Positions 22,875 through 60,833 of a DNA stretch of 64,000 nucleotides are shown piece by piece. Under the pieces are notes generated by a model, which was not told the origin of the DNA, searched no databases, and saw only the letters and a list, made by a program, of their open reading frames with translations. The stretch is from Kitasatospora sp. Root107 (GTDB lineage: Bacteria > Actinomycetota > Actinomycetes > Streptomycetales > Streptomycetaceae): NCBI RefSeq assembly GCF_001424875.1, contig NZ_LMCT01000001.1, forward strand, positions 116,022-180,021. The letters run 5' to 3'. The position numbers were made by a program, and so were the translations under genes. How positions within the stretch are numbered: position 1 is the first letter of the stretch; every line of letters starts with the position of its first letter.

Positions 22875-25800
22875 GTGTCGCCACACCCTGAAACCCCCGT
22901 CAGCTCGGCAAGCTCCACTGGCTTCGGCCCCAACGAGTGGCTCGTCGACGAGATCTACCAGCAGTACCTCCAGGACCCGAACTCGGTTGACCGAGCCTGG
23001 TGGGACTTTTTCGCCGACTACAAGCCCGGTACCGAGGTGACTCCAGTGACCCAGGCCGCGACCCAGGTCGGCCCCACGCCGACCGCCGTTGCCGCCCCTG
23101 CCCCTGCTGCTGTTCAGGCGGCGCCCGCCCCCGCTGCACCGGCTGCTGCCCCCGTGGCCGCGCCGGTCGCCGCGCCGGCGCCCGCGCCACTGGCCGCAGC
23201 TCCGGCCGCGCCGCCCGCGCCGAAGGCGGCCCCGGCCGCTGCCGCGCCGGCCGCAGGGTCGGGCCCTGAGCTGATCCCGCTGCGCGGCCCCTCCAAGGCC
23301 GTGGCCACCAACATGGACGCCTCCCTGGAGGTCCCGACGGCGACGTCGGTGCGTGCCGTGCCGGCCAAGCTGTTGATCGACAACCGCATCGTCATCAACA
23401 ACCACCTGCAGCGCGCCCGTGGCGGCAAGGTCTCCTTCACCCACCTGATCGGTTACGCCCTGGTCCAGGCCATCAAGGCCAGCCCGGGCATGAACTACAG
23501 CTACAAGGTGGAGGACGGCAAGTCCTACCTGGTCAAGCCCGCGCACGTGAACCTCGGCCTGGCCATCGACCTGGTGAAGCCGAACGGCGACCGCCAGCTG
23601 GTCGTCGCGGCCATCAAGAAGGCCGAGACGCTCGACTTCCTCGGCTTCTGGATGGCCTACGAGGACATCGTCCGCCGGGCCCGTGCCAACAAGCTGACGA
23701 TGGACGACTTCACCGGCGTCACCGTCTCGCTGACCAACCCGGGCGGCATCGGCACCGTGCACTCCGTGCCGCGCCTGATGCAGAACCAGGGCACCATCGT
23801 CGGCGTCGGCGCGATGGAGTACCCGGCCGAGTTCCAGGGCTCGTCCCCGGACACCCTGGCCAAGCTGGGCATCTCCAAGATCATGACCCTGACCTCGACC
23901 TATGACCACCGGGTCATCCAGGGCGCGGCCTCGGGCGAGTTCCTGCGCACCATCCACCAGCTGCTGCTCGGTGAGCACAACTTCTACGACGACGTCTTCG
24001 AGTCGCTCCGGATCCCGTACGAGCCGGTCCGCTGGGCCACCGACGTCGCCACCACCCACGACGACGAGGTCAACAAGACCGCGCGCGTCATGGAGCTGAT
24101 CCACTCCTACCGGGTCCGCGGTCACCTGATGGCCGACACCGACCCGCTGGAGTACAAGCAGCGCAAGCACCCCGACCTGGACGTGGTCCAGCACGGGCTG
24201 ACGCTGTGGGACCTGGAGCGCGAGTTCGCGGTCGGCGGCTTCGGCGGCCAGAAGATGATGAAGCTCCGCGACATCCTCGGCCTGCTGCGCAACTCGTACT
24301 GCCGCACCGTCGGCATCGAGTACATGCACATCCAGGACCCGAAGCAGCGCAAGTGGATCCAGGAGCGCCTGGAGAAGCCGTACGCGAAGCCGGAGCGCGA
24401 GGAGCAGCTGCGCATCCTGCGCCGGCTGAACTCGGCCGAGGCCTTCGAGACCTTCCTGCAGACCAAGTACGTCGGCCAGAAGCGCTTCTCGCTGGAGGGC
24501 GGCGAGTCGCTCATCCCGCTGCTGGACGCGACCATCGACGCGGCGGCCGAGCACCGTCTCGACGAGGCCGTGATCGGCATGGCCCACCGCGGCCGGCTGA
24601 ACGTGCTGGCGAACATCGTCGGCAAGCCGTACGGCAAGATCTTCGGCGAGTTCGAGGGCAACCTCGACCCGAAGTCGATGCACGGCTCCGGCGACGTGAA
24701 GTACCACCTGGGCTCCGAGGGGACCTTCACCGGTCTGGACGGGGAGACCATCAAGGTCTCGCTGGCCGCCAACCCCTCGCACCTGGAGGCCGTCGACCCG
24801 GTGGTCGAGGGCATCGTCCGCGCCAAGCAGGACGTGCTGGACCAGGGCGGCACCACCTTCCCGGTGCTGCCGATCCAGATCCACGGTGACGCGGCCTTCG
24901 CCGGCCAGGGCGTCGTCGCGGAGACCCTGAACATGTCGCAGCTGCGCGGCTACCGCACCGGTGGCACCATCCACCTGGTGGTCAACAACCAGGTCGGCTT
25001 CACCGCCGCCCCGGCCAGCAGCCGCTCGTCGATGTACTGCACCGACGTGGCGCGGATGATCGAGGCGCCGATCTTCCACGTGAACGGCGACGACCCGGAG
25101 GCCGTGGTCCGCGTCGCGCGGCTGGCCTTCGAGTTCCGTCAGGAGTTCCACAAGGACGTCGTGATCGACCTCATCTGCTACCGCCGTCGCGGTCACAACG
25201 AGGCCGACAACCCGTCGTTCACCCAGCCGCTGATGTACGACCTGATCGACAAGAAGCGCTCGGTGCGCAAGCTCTACACCGAGGGTCTGATCGGTCGCGG
25301 CGACATCACCATGGAAGAGGCGGAGCAGGCGCTCCAGGACTTCCAGGGTCAGCTGGAGAAGGTGTTCTCCGAGGTCAGGGACGCCGCCTCGGCGCAGGCC
25401 CCGACCTCGGGCGGCAAGCCGCAGGCGGACTTCCCGGTCAACATCCAGACCGGCATCTCCGCCGAGATGGTCAAGCGGATCGCCGCCTCGCAGAGCAACC
25501 TGCCGGAGTGGCTGACGGTGCACCCGCGCCTGCTGCCGCAGCTGCAGCGCCGCACTGCCTCGGTCGAGGACAACACCATCGACTGGGCGATGGGCGAGAC
25601 GCTCGCCATCGGCTCGCTGCTGATGGAGGGTCACCCCGTCCGCCTGGCCGGCCAGGACAGCCGTCGTGGCACCTTCGGCCAGCGCCACGCGGTGCTGATC
25701 GACCGGGTCACCGGCGAGGACTACACCCCGCTGCTGTACCTGACCGAGGACCAGGCCCGTTACACCGTCTACGACTCGCTGCTCAGCGAGTACGCGGCGA

Positions 25801-42183: not shown

Positions 42184-43152
42184 ATGCGCGCTCTCCTGGT
42201 CGTGAACCCGAAGGCGACCACCACGAGTGGACGCACCCGCGACGTGCTGACCCACGCCCTGCGCAGTGACCTGGCCCTGGAAGTCGCGCACACCGAGTAC
42301 CGCGGCCACGCCCGTGACCTGGCCCGTGACGCGGCCGAGCGGGGTCTCGACCTGGTGGTCTCGCTCGGCGGCGACGGCACGGTGAACGAGATCGTCAACG
42401 GGCTGCTCACGCACGGCCCGTCCGACCGGGTGCCCCGGCTGGCCGTCGTCCCCGGCGGCTCGACCAACGTGTTCGCCCGCACCCTCGGCCTGCCGAACGA
42501 CCCGGTGGAGGCGACCGGCGCACTTCTGGACGCCTTGGAGCACCGGCGCGAGCGGGCGGTCAGCCTGGGCAAGGCGATGACCGAGGGCCTGCCGGACCGC
42601 TGGTTCACCTTCACGGCCGGCCTGGGCTTCGACGCGGGGGTGGTCGGCCGGGTGGAGGCCCAGCGCCGGGCCGGGCGGAAGTCCACCCACGGGCTCTACG
42701 TGAGCCAGGCCCTCCGGCACTACGTGACAGAGCGTGAGCACCGCAGAAACGGCCCCATCACCCTGGAGCTGAACGGCCAGGAATCCGTGCCGGGACTGGT
42801 GCTGGCGATAATCTCCAACACCTCGCCGTGGACCTTTCTGGGCAACCGGCCGGTCTTCCCGTCCCCCTCCGCGTCCTTCGACAGCGACCTCGACATCTTC
42901 GGCATCACTCGAATGACCGCGTTCGGCACGGCTCGAACGGTGCGTCAGATTCTGCGTTCGCACATGCCTGCGGACAGTGCCACAGGGCCGGTCGGCCCTA
43001 CCGGGAAGCACCTCGTCTCCTATCACGACGTCCGGCACTTCACCTTGGTTTCCCAGGAACCGGCCCCGTTTCAGGTCGATGGGGACCACCTTGGAGACAG
43101 GAGTCGCGTCAGTTTCACAGGCGTTCGGCGGGCACTGCGTGTGATTGTGTGA
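42184..43152 (+). CDS. Diacylglycerol/lipid kinase (DAGK catalytic domain)
   Basis: 322 residues. Catalytic domain signatures: LLVVNPKATTTSGRT at the start, LVVSLGGDGTVNEIVNGLL (nucleotide-binding GGDGT) and VVPGGSTNVFARTLGLP. The C-terminal beta domain shows FTAGLGFDAGVV and the late EPAPFQVDGDHLGDR motif. It phosphorylates diacylglycerol or a related lipid at the membrane. TAGGCT (42172-42177) ends six bases before the ATG and there is no ribosome site, so the message is probably leaderless, like the GNAT gene at 39.4 kb. Confidence 0.92.
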   Translation: MRALLVVNPKATTTSGRTRDVLTHALRSDLALEVAHTEYRGHARDLARDAAERGLDLVVSLGGDGTVNEIVNGLLTHGPSDRVPRLAVVPGGSTNVFARTLGLPNDPVEATGALLDALEHRRERAVSLGKAMTEGLPDRWFTFTAGLGFDAGVVGRVEAQRRAGRKSTHGLYVSQALRHYVTEREHRRNGPITLELNGQESVPGLVLAIISNTSPWTFLGNRPVFPSPSASFDSDLDIFGITRMTAFGTARTVRQILRSHMPADSATGPVGPTGKHLVSYHDVRHFTLVSQEPAPFQVDGDHLGDRSRVSFTGVRRALRVIV

Positions 43153-43154
43153 CC

Positions 43155-43175
43155 AGAAGGGCCCCTTACCCTTCT
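43155..43175 (+). terminator. Short hairpin after lipid kinase gene
   Basis: AGAAGGG (43155-43161) pairs with CCCTTCT (43169-43175); it starts two bases after the stop codon. Confidence 0.65.
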
Positions 43176-43502
43176 TCTCGAACGCACAAGCCCCCTTCAC
43201 CCCATAGAAGTACGGGCTGTGAGCTAGGCGACACCGAAGAATCAAAAATTCCTAGCCGAAGGGGGTTGTATCCGAGCCCGAGGTTTGCGAACCTCTACAT
43301 GGCGATCGGGACACGTCGCAGCGGGACATACCGCGACAGTTCCCTTGATCCGCCCGAACCCCACTTCTGCACAGACCACCCGGGCCTCATGGGCCTTTGG
43401 TCCCTTTTGCTGTTGCGGGATTCGTGAAAGCGTTCACATTCACAAGCCACCACGATTGCGTCGGCCGGACCACAGTCCGCCGACCGGAGGAGTTGGACGA
43501 AC
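43176..43502 (+). promoter_or_regulatory. Long structured upstream region of wblE
   Basis: 327 bp that are less GC-rich than their surroundings. Three inverted repeats can be seen: GCTAGG (43223-43228) with CCTAGC (43251-43256), GAGGTT TGCG AACCTC (43279-43294) and GTGAA AGCG TTCAC (43424-43437). The first two could fold in an RNA leader, the last looks like an operator close to the promoter. No open frame here has a ribosome site. Confidence 0.45.
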
Positions 43503-43754
43503 ATGGACTGGCGCCACCGCGCTGTCTGTCGCGAAGAGGACCCGGAGCTGTTCTTCCCGATCGGGAACACCGGTCCTGCTCTGCTGCAGATCGAGGAAGC
43601 CAAGGCCGTGTGCCGCCGCTGCCCCGTCATGGAGCAGTGCCTGCAGTGGGCACTGGAGACCGGCCAGGACGCCGGCGTCTGGGGCGGCATGAGCGAGGAC
43701 GAGCGTCGTGCGATGAAGCGCCGCGCCGCCCGCAACCGGGCCCGCACCGCCTGA
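43503..43754 (+). CDS. wblE: WhiB-family iron-sulfur regulator WblE
   Basis: 83 residues. Four Cys of the WhiB cluster site are at positions 9, 37, 40 and 46 (WRHRAVCREEDPELFFP, AKAVCRRCPVMEQCLQWALE), followed by the GVWGGMSEDERRAMKRR turn and basic tail. Upstream GGAGG. WhiB proteins bind a [4Fe-4S] cluster and region 4 of the principal sigma factor; WblE (WhiB1-like) is one of the most conserved and appears essential in several actinomycetes. Confidence 0.95.
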   Translation: MDWRHRAVCREEDPELFFPIGNTGPALLQIEEAKAVCRRCPVMEQCLQWALETGQDAGVWGGMSEDERRAMKRRAARNRARTA

Positions 43755-43834
43755 CATTCCGTCAGCACCGCCTGATCAACACATGATCAAGGGCTTGGCC
43801 GCACTTTCGGCCGAGCCTTCCACGGCACGGACAC

Positions 43835-43863
43835 TTGATAGTGTTCACTGAGAGCAATACCGT
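43835..43863 (+). promoter_or_regulatory. Strong vegetative promoter with no protein gene behind it
   Basis: TTGATA (43835-43840), 17-base spacer, TACCGT (43858-43863). This is one of the best HrdB-type promoters in the window and reads into a region that encodes no protein but contains three hairpins. Confidence 0.7.
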
Positions 43864-43869
43864 GGAGCT

Positions 43870-44010
43870 GTGACGCTCACCGTGTGCAACACGTGAGGCG
43901 AGCGTCGAGCAACACCACAGAGCCCCCGTTCCGGCCGACTCCCCCCGACGGCCGGAACGGGTTGAGAGGCCCTGTCGACCCACCCCCCCGGTCGACAGGG
44001 CCTCGTTGCT
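43870..44010 (+). ncRNA. Probable small RNA gene (scr5239-like by position)
   Basis: The inferred transcript starts about 43870, seven bases after the -10. It folds into a 5' hairpin (GACGCTC 43872-43878 with GAGCGTC 43900-43906, plus inner CGTGT GCA ACACG 43881-43893), then two terminator-grade hairpins: 13-bp stem 43925-43937/43949-43961 and 15-bp stem 43966-43980/43990-44004. The only reading frame is an eight-codon GTG one. Length would be ~95 or ~140 nt depending on the terminator used. In S. coelicolor the known sRNA scr5239 lies, from memory, next to the gene corresponding to the adjacent kinase; homology is inferred from position only. The second hairpin also terminates the converging kinase gene. 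Confidence 0.62.
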
Positions 44011-44022
44011 TTCCTCCCGCGC

Positions 44023-45543
44023 CTACGGGACGGGGATCTCCAGGACCACCTTGGTGCCGCCCTCGGGGTTGGCCACCATGTCGAAGCTACCGCCGAGTTC
44101 GTTGGTGGCCAGGGTCCGGACGATCTGCAGACCCAGGTTGCCCGCCGTCTGCGGGTCGAAGCCCTCCGGCATGCCCTTGCCGTTGTCCTGCACCGTGATC
44201 AGCAGGTACTCCTCCGGCTTGGCACCGCCGTTCCAGCTCTCCGACCAGCCCGTACCGGTGGCGGGCGCGCGCCCGCGCAGGGCGCTGACCTCGACGTTTC
44301 CGCCGTCCTTCGGGCCGAAGGCGTGCTCCAGCGCGTTCTGCAGCACCTCGGTCAGCACCATCGCCAGCGGGGTGGCCACCTCGGCCGACAGGATGCCGAA
44401 GCTGCCGGTCCGCCGAGTGGCGACCTTGCCGTCCTGGGACAGCTCCATCACCATCGCCAGCACCCGGTCGGCGATCTCGTCGAAGGCGACCCGCTCGTCC
44501 AGGGTCTGCGAGAGCGTCTCGTGCACGATCGCGATCGAGCCGACCCGGCGGACCGCCTCGTCCAGCGCGGCCCGGCCGGTCTCCGAGTCCATCCGGCGGG
44601 CCTGCAGCCGGAGCAGCGCCGCTACCGTCTGCAGGTTGTTCTTCACCCGGTGGTGGATCTCCCGGATGGTCGCGTCCTTGGTCATCAACTCACGGTCACG
44701 ACGGCGCAGTTCGGTGACGTCCCGGGCCAGCACCAGCGAACCGGTCAGGACCCCCTTGGGCTTCAGCGGGATCGCCCGCAGGGTCACCACCCCGCCCTGC
44801 GCCTCCACCTCGGTCTGCCGGGGCGCCCAGCCGCTGGCCAGCTTGACCAGCGCCTCGTGCACCGCGGCCCGCGCCGGGGGCGCCAACTCGGCGGTGGTGC
44901 GGCCGAGGTGACTGCCCACCAGATCGGTACTGAGCCCGATCCGGTGGTACGCCGAGAGCGCGTTCGGGCTGGCGTAGGTGACGACGCCGTCCGCGTCGAG
45001 CCTGATCAGCCCGTCGCCGACCCGGGGTGCCGCATCCATGTCGGTCTGCTCGACCCCGTGGTACGGGAACGTTCCTGCGGCGATCATCTGGGCCAGGTCG
45101 GAGGCGCTCTGCAGGTACGTGAGCTCCAGCCGGCTCGGGGTCCGGACGGTGAGCAGGTTGGTGTTCCTGGCGATCACCCCGAGCACCTTGCCCTCGCGCC
45201 GGACCGGGATCGACTCGACCCGGACCGGCACCTCCTCCCGCCACTCCGGATCACCCTCCCGGACGATCCGCCCCTCGTCGTAAGCGGCGTCCAGCAGCGG
45301 GCGGCGGCCGCGCGGCACCAGGTGGCCGACCATGTCGTCCTGGTACGACGTAGGGCCCGTGTTGGGCCGCATCTGGGCCACCGAGACGTACCGGATGCCG
45401 TCCCAGGTGGGGATCCACAGCACCAGGTCGGCGAAGGACAGGTCGGAGAGCAGCTGCCACTCCGAGACCAGCATGTGCAGCCAATCCACATCGGCACCGG
45501 TCAGGGTGGTGTGGCGGCGGACGAGTTCGTTCAGCGAGGGCAC
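44023..45543 (-). CDS. Cytoplasmic sensor histidine kinase (PdtaS-like, HisKA_2)
   Basis: 506 residues from a GTG at 45543; the longer frame to 45657 runs over an operator-like site. An N-terminal GAF-type domain (~1-140, LHMLVSEWQLLSDLSFADLV) and a PAS domain (~175-290, GLIRLDADGVVTYASPNALS) precede the HisKA_2 helix with the phosphorylated His in IREIHHRVKNNLQTVAALLR and an ATPase domain (VLTEVLQNALEHAFG, VQDNGKGMPEGFD, NLGLQIVRTL). No membrane helix. It is the actinobacterial partner of ANTAR-type regulators (PdtaR), which bind RNA; no regulator gene is adjacent. A DasR-like site lies 84-99 bp upstream. Confidence 0.9.
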   Translation of the reverse strand: MPSLNELVRRHTTLTGADVDWLHMLVSEWQLLSDLSFADLVLWIPTWDGIRYVSVAQMRPNTGPTSYQDDMVGHLVPRGRRPLLDAAYDEGRIVREGDPEWREEVPVRVESIPVRREGKVLGVIARNTNLLTVRTPSRLELTYLQSASDLAQMIAAGTFPYHGVEQTDMDAAPRVGDGLIRLDADGVVTYASPNALSAYHRIGLSTDLVGSHLGRTTAELAPPARAAVHEALVKLASGWAPRQTEVEAQGGVVTLRAIPLKPKGVLTGSLVLARDVTELRRRDRELMTKDATIREIHHRVKNNLQTVAALLRLQARRMDSETGRAALDEAVRRVGSIAIVHETLSQTLDERVAFDEIADRVLAMVMELSQDGKVATRRTGSFGILSAEVATPLAMVLTEVLQNALEHAFGPKDGGNVEVSALRGRAPATGTGWSESWNGGAKPEEYLLITVQDNGKGMPEGFDPQTAGNLGLQIVRTLATNELGGSFDMVANPEGGTKVVLEIPVP

Positions 45544-45626
45544 AGGGCGAGGGTATCCGCAGCAGGCCCCGGACTGCTTCTCCACTGTGGCCCGGACCAA
45601 TCTCGGAAGCTCTCTGGACAAGCCGG

Positions 45627-45642
45627 ATTGGTCTAGTCCACA
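45627..45642. promoter_or_regulatory. DasR-like operator (dre) upstream of the histidine kinase
   Basis: ATTGGTCTAGTCCACA matches the dre consensus ACTGGTCTAGACCACT at 13 of 16 positions, including the TGGTCTAG core. It lies 84 bp before the GTG start of the kinase, in promoter position. The rest of the 45544-45868 region holds no gene or repeat that I can name. Confidence 0.6.
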
Positions 45643-45868
45643 ATGAAAGAGCACCAAGGAGCCGCCCCCCGCGCAACTGCCCTGACCGCGCGAGGCAGCT
45701 CCTCGGTCGGACGCCCCACACCCCGTCGGCCCCGCACAGCCGACGGCCGGTAGAGGCGCCCGACGACAGCTCCGGGCTGCGGTGCCGCACAGGCTGAGGG
45801 TCCTGTGTCGGCGCCGTGGCCCGTAGTGCTTTCCCCGCTGCGCTCAGCCTCTTGCAGGCGCTCAGCCA

Positions 45869-45991
45869 TGCACCACCAGGGGCTCGGGGAACTGCGACGC
45901 CGACCTGTGGAGCGTTGCACCTGCGTAGATGGTCAGGCACTTTCGCAGTGACCCCGGCGCCAGATCTCCTCGCAGTTCCCCGAGCCCCTGG
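45869..45991 (-). repeat. Dispersed palindromic element, copy C
   Basis: Inverted ends 45877-45897 and 45970-45990 are perfect (21 bp). The left flank TGCACCACCAGGGG is shared with copy B and, inverted, with copy A. The interior contains GGTCAGGCACTTTCGCAGTG as in copy B. Just outside, GCAGGCGCTCAGCC (45855-45868) also occurs beside copy A (10329-10341 region). The right end lies 27 bp after the stop codon of the SIS-domain gene, in the direction of its transcription. Confidence 0.88.
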
Positions 45992-46018
45992 CGTGTGCCA
46001 TCTTGCCCGACCGCGAAA

Positions 46019-47077
46019 TCAGTGCGTCTCGGTGATCTTGGCGAGGGCGCGAGGTGCGTCCGGGTCCTGGCCGCGGGCGATGGCGACCTCGTAGGCGAGT
46101 TGCTGGAGCGGCAGGATCTCCAGGACGGGCTGGATCTCCTCGGGAACCCCGGGCGGCAGCGCGAAGCCCGCGGAGGCGGCGTCCACCTGCTCCTGCTGCC
46201 CGATCACCACCAGGTCCGCACCGCGCCCCCGCAGCCGGTCCAGCACCGGCTGGAGGGCCTCCCCGCCCTTGCCGTCCGGCACCACCGCGATCACCGGCGA
46301 GACGTTGTCGACCATCGCCAGCGGCCCGTGCAGCAGATCCGCCCCGGAGAACGGCGAGGCCGGGATGTAGGTGGTCTCCATCAGCTTGAGCGCGGCCTCC
46401 CGCGCGGTCGGGTAGCCGTAGCCGCGCGAGGTGAGCACCAGCCGCTGGGCGAACCGGTACCGCTCGGCCAGCGCCTTGACCTCGGCCTGCCGTCCGAGCA
46501 CCTCCTCGGCCAGCTCGGGCAGCACCTCGGCGGCCGAGCCGTCCCCGCCGCGCAGGCCCTCGACCAGCAGGTAGAGGGCGAGCAGCTCGGCGGTGTAGGT
46601 CTTGGTGGCGGGCAGTGCCTTCTCCGGACCGGCCAGCAGGTCGATGTGGAACTCGGAGACCTCGGCCAGCGGCGAGTCGGCGTTGTTGGTGACCGACAGG
46701 GTGGTCGCGCCGGCCTCCCGGGCGGCCTTGGTCGAGGCCACCAGGTCGGGTGAGCCGCCGGACTGGCTGACCGTGACCACCAGCACGTCGGTCAGGTCGG
46801 GCCTGGCCCCGTACGCGGTGGTGGTGGACATCGAGGTGAGACCGGCCGGCTTGCCGAGCAGGATCTCGATCAGGTACTTGGCGTAGAGCGCCGCGTTGTC
46901 CGAGGTGCCGCGTGCGGTCAGCAGCACGAAGCGCGGCTTGCGGGCGGCGATCCCGGCGGCGACCTCACGGATCTTCGGGCCGCCCTGGTCGAGGATGCGC
47001 CGCAGGACGGCGGGCTGCTCGGCCATCTCCGCCGCCATGATCCGGCCGGGGGCGGGCGGGTTCTGCGGGTCGGTCAT
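46019..47077 (-). CDS. SIS-domain protein, candidate glucosamine-6-phosphate deaminase (NagB-II/AgaS type)
   Basis: 352 residues from ATG at 47077 (GGAGG nine bases upstream); a start at 47113 has no site. Two SIS domains: first ~50-180 (FVLLTARGTSDNAALYAKYL, VVTVSQSGGSPDLVASTKAA, SVTNNADSPLAE), second ~200-330 (RLVLTSRGYGYPTAREAALK, GADLLHGPLAMV). This is the isomerase half of GlmS without the glutaminase domain. Such proteins can be deaminating isomerases of GlcN6P (NagB-II) or of related sugar phosphates. The location inside the DasR-controlled GlcNAc region favours GlcN6P deaminase, releasing ammonia and fructose 6-phosphate. Confidence 0.75.
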   Translation of the reverse strand: MTDPQNPPAPGRIMAAEMAEQPAVLRRILDQGGPKIREVAAGIAARKPRFVLLTARGTSDNAALYAKYLIEILLGKPAGLTSMSTTTAYGARPDLTDVLVVTVSQSGGSPDLVASTKAAREAGATTLSVTNNADSPLAEVSEFHIDLLAGPEKALPATKTYTAELLALYLLVEGLRGGDGSAAEVLPELAEEVLGRQAEVKALAERYRFAQRLVLTSRGYGYPTAREAALKLMETTYIPASPFSGADLLHGPLAMVDNVSPVIAVVPDGKGGEALQPVLDRLRGRGADLVVIGQQEQVDAASAGFALPPGVPEEIQPVLEILPLQQLAYEVAIARGQDPDAPRALAKITETH

Positions 47078-47148
47078 CTGACGGTGCCTCCGCTCGGGAC
47101 GGTCGCTCTCCATCCGTGATGCTACGAGCGCGGCCGCCCCCGGGCACC

Positions 47149-47206: not shown

Positions 47207-48520
47207 TCAGGACGGATTGTTGATCAACTCGTCGATCTTCGCGTCGGCCTCCTGGGTGGCCTGGTCGACCGACTTCCCCTTGAGGATCTCGTTCAGCAGG
47301 TTCACCAGGACGTTCTGCTTCTCGATCGCGCCCCAGCCGGGGGCGATCGGGGTGAACCAGGCGTCGGGTACCGCGTTCGCCGCGGCGGCGGTGGCGGGCT
47401 TGGACTTCAGCGGGCTGAGCTGGGTCAGGTTGTTCGGCAGGGTGTCCTTGTCGACCAGCACCTGCTGCGACTTTGCGCTGGTGAACATCCGGATCCAGTC
47501 CTTGGCCGCCTCCTGGGACTGCGACTTGGCGGTCACCGCGAGGTCGGAGCCGCCGATGAAGGAGGGCAGCGGCTTGCCGTTCGGGCCCGGCATACCGGCC
47601 ACTTTGAGGACGTCCTTGAGCTTGGGGTCGCCGCCGACCGGCGCGGTGGCGACGGAGGTCTCCCAGCCGTTGCCGTAGAGCATCGCGGTCTTCGAACGGC
47701 CCAGCACGGTGGCCTGGTTGAGCTCGTTCACAGCCAGGTCACCCTTGTTGTACGTCTTCACCAGGTCGACGAAGTGCTGGATGCCCTGCTGGGACTTGGC
47801 GTCGTGCAGCGTGCCGTGCCACTTGCCGGCGCTGTCGAACCGGGCGATGCTGCCGCCGTACGCGGTCACGTAGGACATCGCGGCGTACCAGTACGGGCCC
47901 GGGAGGTAGAGCGCGGAGTAGCTCTTGTCGCCCTTGTGCTTGGCTGCCACCTTGTCGAGCGCGGCGCGCAGCTCGTCCTCGTTCTTCGGGAACTCGGCGC
48001 TGCCGGTGGCCTCCTGGAAGGCCGCGGCGTTGTAGAGGCCGACCCGGGCGCCCGCGTAGTACGGCACGCAGTAGAGCTTGTCCTGGTACTTGCAGGTGTT
48101 GACCAGGCCCTGGATCCAGCTGTCCGAATTCTCGAAGCCGGCCTTGTCGACCGGTGCCAGCGAACCGTTCAGGATGTACTTCATGGTCTCGGTGTTGCCG
48201 AGTTCGACCACGTCGGGCGCCGAGCCGCCGGCCAGTGCCGCGTCCAGCTTGGCGATCTTGTCGGCCCAGGTCTGGTAGCTGAGTTTGAGGTCGACCTTCG
48301 GGTACTTCGCCGCGAATTCGTCATTGACCTGCTGGACCAGTTCGGGCCAGTTCGCCTGGGCCTCGTTCATCAGCCAGATGGTGACCGAGCCGGTGAGCGT
48401 CTTCGGGTCGGTGGTGCTCGGACCGCTGCCCGCGCTGCCGGGGCCGGCGCTGCCCCCGCAGGCCGCTGTGCTGGCGAGCAGTGCCGCGACGCCGAACGTC
48501 GCTATGAGCCGACGGTTCAC
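47207..48520 (-). CDS. Extracellular sugar-binding lipoprotein, DasA paralogue
   Basis: 437 residues from GTG at 48520 with GGGAGGATGGC upstream, the same leader as dasA. A lipoprotein signal ends STAAC-GG. The fold is that of family 1 sugar binders: VTIWLMNEAQANWPELVQQV, YPKVDLKLSYQTWADKIAKL, APDVVELGNTETMKYILNGS and [20 protein letters not shown]-like blocks, all closely parallel to DasA ([35 protein letters not shown]). It has its own pair of DasR-like sites and terminator. It probably delivers a GlcNAc oligomer to DasBC, or an alternative ligand. Confidence 0.9.
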   Translation of the reverse strand: MNRRLIATFGVAALLASTAACGGSAGPGSAGSGPSTTDPKTLTGSVTIWLMNEAQANWPELVQQVNDEFAAKYPKVDLKLSYQTWADKIAKLDAALAGGSAPDVVELGNTETMKYILNGSLAPVDKAGFENSDSWIQGLVNTCKYQDKLYCVPYYAGARVGLYNAAAFQEATGSAEFPKNEDELRAALDKVAAKHKGDKSYSALYLPGPYWYAAMSYVTAYGGSIARFDSAGKWHGTLHDAKSQQGIQHFVDLVKTYNKGDLAVNELNQATVLGRSKTAMLYGNGWETSVATAPVGGDPKLKDVLKVAGMPGPNGKPLPSFIGGSDLAVTAKSQSQEAAKDWIRMFTSAKSQQVLVDKDTLPNNLTQLSPLKSKPATAAAANAVPDAWFTPIAPGWGAIEKQNVLVNLLNEILKGKSVDQATQEADAKIDELINNPS

Positions 48521-48552: not shown

Positions 48553-48593
48553 TGTGGTTTAGACCGGATTGCTGGAGACTGGCCTAGACCAAA
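48553..48593 (-). promoter_or_regulatory. Pair of DasR-like operators before the second sugar-binding gene
   Basis: Two 16-bp dre-like sites: TGTGGTTTAGACCGGA (48553-48568) and ACTGGCCTAGACCAAA (48578-48593), 25 bp apart. The second fits the consensus at 13 of 16 positions. The spacing and the sequence around them (CTGGAGAC/TT-GGCCTAGACCAA, then GTGTCAACG) match the dasA promoter, so the whole promoter was duplicated with the gene. Confidence 0.78.
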
Positions 48594-53832: not shown

Positions 53833-53873
53833 AGTGGTGTAGACCAGATGCCTGGAGCTTGGCCTAGACCAAT
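53833..53873. promoter_or_regulatory. Pair of DasR operators (dre) upstream of dasA
   Basis: AGTGGTGTAGACCAGA (53833-53848) and CTTGGCCTAGACCAAT (53858-53873), 25 bp apart. The first fits the degenerate dre pattern (A, C/G, TGGTCTAGACCA, C/G, T) at 14 of 16 positions, the second at 12. They lie 120-160 bp before the dasA start. DasR binding to dasA is established in Streptomyces. The remaining part of 53713-54045 is the dasR promoter side, with an 8-bp inverted pair GGGCCCCG (53953-53960) / CGGGGCCC (54004-54011). Confidence 0.82.
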
Positions 53874-60451: not shown

Positions 60452-60612
60452 GAGGCGAGATAGTAATCCAAAGCGCCGACGCAGGGCCGATCGGTGACAG
60501 TTTTGTGCCCGGGCAGTGTGCGCCGACCGTGTGCCGACCGATCCCCCGGCATCGTCCCCGAACCCGACGAGGAGTCAGCCCGACACACTGCGCGCACAAG
60601 ATGTGGGGTCAC
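60452..60612. other. Promoter area between membrane protein gene and riboswitch
   Basis: 161 bp that should contain both divergent promoters. I see no distinctive repeat or operator. Confidence 0.35.
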
Positions 60613-60744
60613 GTCGGCAGGGTGCCACTACATGTATGCTCGCTCTCGCTGTCGAAGCAGGGGAACCCGGTGTGATTCCGGGACTGCCCCGCAGCGGTGA
60701 GCGCGCGGCCCAAGGGCCGCCCGTGAGTCCGAGGACCTGCCGAC
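60613..60744 (+). promoter_or_regulatory. Cobalamin (adenosylcobalamin) riboswitch aptamer
   Basis: The closing stem GTCGGCAGG (60613-60621) pairs with CCTGCCGAC (60736-60744). Between are the conserved blocks of the B12 riboswitch: GAAGCAGGGGAA, CCCGGTGTGATTCCGGGACT, GCCCCGCAGCGGTGA, and the B12 box GAGTCCGAGGACCTGCC (60725-60741). A variable arm GCGGCCCAAGGGCCGC lies at 60705-60720. It precedes nrdAB, as known in S. coelicolor, where B12 represses this operon so that the B12-dependent class II enzyme is used instead. Confidence 0.95.
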
Positions 60745-60833
60745 GGCGTGCGACACGGCTTCCCCGCAGACGCCATGCAGCACCGCAGTGACATCCGGGC
60801 CTCGCGGGCGGGCCGGGGGGGTATTCGCGCGCG

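Follow-up and report, generated by a model that had tools for sequence, protein, structure and literature searches.

A probable small RNA gene next to wblE

Whether the gap between wblE and a convergent sensor kinase gene of Kitasatospora sp. Root107 hosts a small RNA gene, and of which kind, is the question raised by this locus. An earlier inspection of the letters alone (the sequence-only reading) had described here a small RNA gene endowed with its own promoter, and suggested that it could be the homologue of scr5239. The comparative evidence supports the former notion, and very probably a genuine small RNA gene, shared by Kitasatospora and close relatives, is located here. The latter notion is contradicted by both position and sequence. 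The relevant features are given below, in coordinates of the window, which is the whole stretch of 64,000 nt analysed.

43503..43754, plus strand: wblE (WhiB family, SCO5240-like), upstream neighbour; PF02467 Whib, E 3.8e-29
43792..43817, plus strand: hairpin GGCTTGGCCG-loop-CGGCCGAGCC, a likely terminator of wblE, placed between this gene and the sRNA promoter; read from sequence
43835..43863, plus strand: promoter, -35 TTGATA at 43835-43840, spacer of 17 nt, -10 TACCGT at 43858-43863; read in sequence
43869..44014, plus strand: predicted sRNA transcript of ~140-145 nt, start at ~43869-43871 and end at ~44008-44014, as deduced from the promoter and the last hairpin
43872..43906, plus strand: 5' hairpin, 7-bp outer stem 43872-43878/43900-43906; computed fold
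43925..43961, plus strand: core hairpin 1, 13 bp, 11-nt loop ACTCCCCCCGA at 43938-43948; sequence and fold
43966..44004, plus strand: core hairpin 2, 15 bp, 9-nt loop CACCCCCCC at 43981-43989; sequence and fold
44023..45657, minus strand: PdtaS-type sensor kinase (SCO5239-like), convergent neighbour; PF12282 GAF_PdtaS, E 1.7e-56

A passage of PMC6344877 equates wblE with SCO5240. wblE and PdtaS-type kinase genes are convergent at many actinobacterial loci; the kinase frame given here is the longest one, and the true start is probably located further in. The promoter letters singled out by the sequence-only reading are in place, and the two adjacent hairpins of 13 and 15 bp were found in both the sequence and the computed fold. 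The fold of the interval 43866-44014 has an energy of -85.6 kcal/mol (z -7.6), and none of 200 shuffled sequences was equally stable. The runs of C carried by the window copy are C6 in loop 1 and C7 in loop 2. Scanning both strands of the 64-kb window for two adjacent C-loop hairpins, each with a stem of at least 9, gave one match, which is the pair described here. The 5' side of the 5' hairpin (CGCTCACCGT) is nearly invariant within Kitasatospora. The outer stem of this hairpin was recovered as described, but the inner part folds as 2 + 4 pairs, and not as a single 5-bp stem.

Both core hairpins had been viewed as terminators, and transcripts of either ~95 or ~140 nt had been envisaged. A T-containing tail is found after hairpin 2 only (GTTGCTTTCC, 44005-44014), whereas hairpin 1 is followed by GTTGAGAGG. 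Hairpin 2 is a probable terminator, the 95-nt product is thus unsupported, and a single transcript of ~140-145 nt is likelier. A generic scan of the interval 43000-45000 found no promoters, and flagged neither the TTGATA-TACCGT pair, nor the core hairpins, nor the hairpin at 43792-43817; the sole terminator reported maps at 43391-43403. Promoter and core hairpins escaped the scan because TACCGT is TANNNT-like and not TATAAT-like, and a strong T run is absent. The statement that no protein frame lies behind the promoter holds in part. Mechanical ORFs do overlap the stretch, as those at 43884-44198 (plus strand) and 43762-43983 (minus strand), but any reading frame common to relatives would be broken in the core by differences in the length of the C runs.

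Conservation of promoter, core and loops

The mean identity to the window, calculated over 53 distinct gaps, is 97% for the core, 87% for the promoter, and 80% for both the 5' domain and the flank between wblE and the promoter. Third codon positions of wblE are 90% identical (55 loci), a value below that of the core. Of 55 distinct Kitasatospora gaps, that of the window among them, 54 fit the promoter pattern TTG(A/C)(T/C)A-17-TA(T/C/G)(C/T)GT, always with a spacer of 17 nt, though 16 to 18 nt were allowed. In the remaining gap (L074), TTACCGT is found in place of the CACCGT required by the pattern.

In an alignment of 31 cores, 99.2% of 868 cells are paired, and 6 of 28 pairs are changed on both sides. 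None of 500 shuffles scored as high, and slid structures gave 0-1 such pairs; the count of further pair types, another measure of covariation, showed no excess over its own shuffles in the same cores. The loops, which the sequence-only reading had indicated as worth comparing, are conserved in these cores. The sole changes in loop 1 concern one C; in loop 2 one position is either A or T, and the count of C residues differs. The 5' hairpin is weaker evidence than the core. Only 1 of the 11 pairs of its helix is changed on both sides (32 of 42 short-form sequences), the 5' domain is conserved as much as the flank, and is different in Streptacidiphilus. A sub-group of Kitasatospora loci (L065-L068, L070, L071, L073, L074, L076) carries ~30-45 extra nt between 5' hairpin and core, which can fold as an additional hairpin.

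Distribution among relatives

A DNA search gave a match in all 70 Kitasatospora genomes, that of strain Root107 included. R1, a covariance model describing the two-hairpin core and built from 31 of 68 aligned loci, matched 82 of 200 genomes of the family at E 0.01. Matches are strong (at least 98 bits) in 81 genomes, namely 63 of 64 Kitasatospora, 14 Streptacidiphilus, 3 Peterkaempfera, and one member of a further genus. The 64th Kitasatospora genome (G046) has a DNA match truncated at the end of a contig. The weak match (36.6 bits) is found in one genome of group g7. Strain Root107 itself has a single strong match, that of the window locus (117 bits); the second best (27.9 bits) comes from the minus strand of this locus. 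In a set of 15 named genomes, strong matches were found in five (three Kitasatospora, P. griseoplana and Streptacidiphilus anmyonensis), weak matches in two (Streptomyces sp. YIM 98790, 31.7 bits, and S. albus subsp. chlorinus, 31.0 bits), and none in eight. The family search was carried out with strict filters and 20 candidates scored per genome, and absences elsewhere in the genomes are provisional; the absence of the RNA from the wblE gap itself is firmer.

At 100 wblE loci, which include some wblE paralogues (as L195 and L198) and leave out L162-L166 and L243-L246, R1 matches are strong at L167-L170, i.e. three Kitasatospora and one Peterkaempfera, and no other score exceeds 23.3 bits. Comparison with the corresponding region of Streptomyces, also put forward by the sequence-only reading, turned out to be negative. 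None of the 26 Streptomyces-labelled loci, where wblE is at least 94% identical, has a strong R1 match, nor any above 21.5 bits. Counted by a simple pattern, the core is present in 77 loci and lacking in 106, one of the latter being a Kitasatospora locus cut by a contig end; L039-L057 were dropped from this count as duplicates, and some genomes occur twice under different handles. The wblE gap measures 268-649 nt where the RNA is present, mostly <290 nt where it is missing. Single C-loop hairpins reside in the wblE-kinase gap of some lineages lacking the RNA (L138, L141, L142, L149, L174, L211), and represent a possible starting point for the origin of the RNA.

Association with wblE outlasts adjacency to the kinase gene. 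The C-terminus of the kinase was not found near wblE at 14 Streptacidiphilus loci, a search with the whole kinase over ~1 kb downstream of wblE retrieved nothing in 5 of the 14, and at one Streptacidiphilus locus for which frames were listed another gene resides at the place of the kinase. The sRNA core still adjoins wblE in this genus, which speaks against its being a mere terminator of the kinase gene.

The position of scr5239

scr5239 is defined in a passage of PMC4365011 as the sRNA upstream of SCO5239. The candidate RNA has the same kinase gene as neighbour, and this is what speaks for the homology. It lies, however, at the 3' end of the kinase gene, and differs from scr5239 in both sequence and structure. 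Among the matches listed up to E = 10, the scr5239 model RF02605 has none in the interval 43400-44200, and the GCTGCGG core is missing from 43866-44014. The chance that the stretch is the scr5239 homologue is therefore practically nil. The actual homologue is found 1.7 kb away, beyond the kinase gene.

45629..45640, plus strand: DasR element TGGTCTAGTCCA, exact match to the published dre core of scr5239
45690..45814, plus strand: scr5239 homologue, RF02605 match at 45720-45814, 5' end set approximately by the 49-nt distance to the dre given in the literature

The RF02605 match scores 41.5 bits (E 1.9e-5), below the gathering cut-off of 64. According to the portions of the two papers at hand, the core of scr5239 is GCUGCGG, about half of the homologues carry a tandem GCUCCGG-GCUGCGG (PMC4365011), and the DasR element TGGTCTAGTCCA lies 49 nt ahead of the start of the RNA (PMC4398421). 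The tandem GCTCCGG-GCTGCGG is present at 45769-45782. In S. tendae RF02605 scores 171 bits, beyond the 5' end of the kinase gene. At 10 named loci the cut-off is reached in six Streptomyces, always beyond the 5' end of the kinase gene, and in none of the other four (three Kitasatospora and one Peterkaempfera); in all these four a dre is followed 141-146 nt on, on the same strand, by the GCTGCGG core. A likely mis-annotation is thus corrected, as scr5239 resides across the kinase gene from the candidate RNA.

The DasR site that the sequence-only reading had associated with the RNA does exist, but belongs to the scr5239 homologue, ~1.8 kb from the promoter of the candidate RNA. The nearest match to TGGTCTAGNCCA within one mismatch being that at 45629, DasR control of the RNA was discarded. 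Other matches with 0-1 mismatch map at 48580-48591, 53835-53846, 53860-53871, 23461-23472 and 46729-46740, the first of which is upstream of a solute-binding protein gene (47207-48520, minus strand). The dre-scr5239 unit is divergent from the kinase gene in the window, as well as in three named Kitasatospora, in Peterkaempfera, and in both S. rimosus and S. nigrescens, but runs in the same direction as the kinase gene in S. tendae and another three Streptomyces; the opposite orientations look like the outcome of an inversion of the regulator plus its DasR site. A long inverted repeat at 45868-46001, between the scr5239 homologue and a SIS-domain gene (46019-47113, minus strand), gave microRNA-like matches and is perhaps a bidirectional terminator. 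A cobalamin riboswitch is found farther away, at 60598-60758 on the plus strand (58.8 bits).

A repressor of translation?

The explanation that we favour, with fair but by no means full confidence, is that the locus encodes an independently transcribed RNA of ~140-145 nt, of the 6C/B11 type, whose C loops block translation at G-rich ribosome-binding sites. Transcription would start near 43870, and end past the second C-loop hairpin. The two rigid hairpins would display the C-rich loops ACUCCCCCCG and CCCACCCCCCC, and these would most likely pair with G-rich ribosome-binding sites, and hence block translation, as reported for B11/6C. From anatomy, conservation of promoter and loops, covariation, distribution, and the presence of a separate canonical 6C in the same genome we infer transcription, the ends of the RNA, pairing to mRNAs and repression. 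In the sections consulted of PMC10470900, either C loop of B11, the mycobacterial 6C, can repress eccB4 via its G-rich ribosome-binding site; in M. abscessus, mutating both C loops of B11 abolishes repression, and compensating changes restore it.

The hairpins could also be viewed as transcription terminators only, acting on read-through from wblE and, on the other strand, on the convergent kinase gene, next to an incidental promoter-like sequence. The convergent arrangement, with hairpin 2 ending 18 nt from the end of the kinase frame, fits this explanation, as does the occurrence of single long C-loop hairpins in 6 of the 106 loci lacking the RNA (e.g., L138, L141). Yet, a terminator-like hairpin of wblE already lies ahead of the promoter, and a terminator needs neither an almost invariant loop 1, nor a core more conserved than third codon positions of wblE. 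Maintenance of the promoter spacing in 54 of 55 gaps, and of the core in Streptacidiphilus even with no kinase gene alongside, point in the same direction, and we regard a role confined to termination as rather unlikely. The same convergent layout would allow the RNA to act mainly in cis, as a 3' antisense or kissing partner of the kinase mRNA, since a read-through 3' end of the kinase mRNA would carry exact complementary G loops; the weak R1 match of 27.9 bits on the minus strand goes along with this. Streptacidiphilus keeps the core with no kinase there, and a predominantly cis-acting RNA seems improbable. The vicinity of a PdtaS-type kinase, along with the two hairpins separated by a short linker, may also recall ANTAR-target RNAs, dual hairpins that would here serve the adjoining PdtaS/PdtaR pair. 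The loops of ANTAR RNAs are hexanucleotides in which A1 and G4 are fixed (as stated in a passage of PMC8164766), whereas the loops at issue measure 11 and 9 nt and are C-rich. On loop size and letters the assignment was ruled out, and retains a negligible likelihood.

The favoured explanation, a C-loop repressor, implies targets, and by analogy with 6C the RNA probably represses mRNAs with G-rich ribosome-binding sites. Sites of the type GGGGGAGT-N3-9-ATG number 26, 27, 18 and 20 in the own genome (G000), G062, G037 and G065, respectively, and 6, 7, 5 and 2 when the pattern is reversed; an excess of this sort would be seen with any Shine-Dalgarno-like string. With the longer pattern CGGGGGGAGT-N2-10-RTG, 2 sites were retrieved in the own genome, none in the control. 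Two GGGGGAGT sites with near-identical spacers were seen by eye to recur in all four genomes. One was dropped, as by translation it seems antisense to a coding gene. The other marks the start of a BPD_transp_2 permease, chosen for its recurrence in the four genomes. GGGGGAGT is found at the permease gene in four of four further RNA-bearing genomes (G066, two named Kitasatospora and Peterkaempfera), and in one of six lacking the RNA (S. nigrescens). Against the permease as target, RNA-bearing and RNA-lacking groups correspond to clades, and the upstream gene terminates within the same GGGGGAGT letters. At the S. nigrescens permease site the predicted binding of loop 1 is at least as good, and the loops of the own 6C are predicted to bind more strongly than loop 1 or loop 2 at every site, the 6C pieces being longer and inclusive of stem letters. 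The permease gene was not matched at E 1e-60 in Streptacidiphilus (G214). The permease is only a lead, as a candidate target of predicted pairing. The loop-2 pattern GGGGGGTG-N2-10-ATG gave 16, 35, 26 and 26 sites (controls 6, 11, 12 and 11), and by eye no site recurs in the four genomes. A search for 7-nt complements in the 64-kb window gave many unspecific matches.

Relation to known RNAs

In Rfam, the stretch comes closest to 6C (RF01066; 45.8 bits, E 1e-4) and Scr3202 (RF02833; 44.4 bits, E 7e-5), both scores being short of the gathering cut-offs of 47 and 52 bits. No family cut-off was reached by any of 20 relatives, chosen for diversity among the wblE-linked loci at hand. C-rich or CU-rich loops are similarly laid out in the proteobacterial RNAs ar14 (RF02344) and sX13 (RF02232), but these belong to another phylum, and the scores of 32.0 and 20.3 bits are far under their cut-offs of 58.8 and 50. 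Among the matches listed from the open-access literature searched, none describes an sRNA between wblE and the kinase gene, which is no proof of absence; wblE is not mentioned in the parts seen of studies on S. ambofaciens, S. lividans and S. clavuligerus sRNAs (PMC8388888, PMC8079986, PMC11678152). For K. setae, 65 predicted sRNA genes are reported, unnamed in the relevant passages (PMC11117518). The locus adds a well-conserved C-loop sRNA to a genus with little sRNA work.

Scr3202 has the same two C-loop hairpins, and its S. tendae copy shares ACTCCCCCCG with loop 1. This copy adjoins a sigma factor gene, which we take to be hrdD. Scr3202 was found above cut-off in 2 of 16 genomes searched, the own genome not being among them (140 of ~14,000 candidates scored per genome). 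In searches of the own genome, 150 of 5124 candidates were scored for 6C and 140 of 13813 for Scr3202, and the locus of the window was not listed; silence elsewhere in the genome is weak evidence because only part of the candidates was scored. 6C and Scr3202 have separate annotations in S. lividans, and the passages seen of PMC8079986 mention RNA-seq support for 6C, none for Scr3202.

RNAs of the 6C type, known as B11 in mycobacteria, consist of two stem-loops, typically with at least 6 C each (passages of PMC8388888 and PMC4046766). The RNA described here features two adjacent hairpins with C-rich loops, in line with this definition. In the 31 relatives loop 1 has C5-C6 (C5 in 2 of 31) and loop 2 C6-C9. 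The stretch aligns over the full length of the 75-position 6C model, and a small stand-alone transcript is expected, as for 6C. It differs from 6C in the locus, the letters of the loops and the added 5' hairpin. The own genome hosts a canonical 6C (54.2 bits, at G000:C12:655079-655156), which is flanked by what we take, from the translations, to be an ssd-like ATPase gene on one side and a HAD-hydrolase-like one on the other, presumably at the place corresponding to the mycobacterial 6C site. Identity is 59% to both the own 6C and S. tendae scr3202, within the range of a control made from scr3202 alone (mononucleotide shuffles, mean 53%, highest 60%), and common descent with 6C is thus not demonstrated by sequence. 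The best reading of these data is that the RNA is built like 6C/B11 RNAs, and would be a second, clade-specific C-loop RNA of that build beside the canonical 6C.

C-loop RNAs of Streptomycetaceae would accordingly be distributed over separate loci. Besides the canonical 6C, these are Scr3202, which some Streptomyces carry next to an hrdD-like gene, and the wblE-linked RNA of Kitasatospora, Streptacidiphilus, Peterkaempfera and a further genus. It is conceivable, though we put it forward tentatively, that they are independent inventions of one design, parallel repressors of translation in place of one 6C. Were it so, the loop letters of each RNA would set its own targets among G-rich ribosome-binding sites. 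The loops of the wblE-linked RNA differ from those of the 6C in the same genome, and a rule relating loop letters to targets of 6C-type repressors is therefore testable in one cell.
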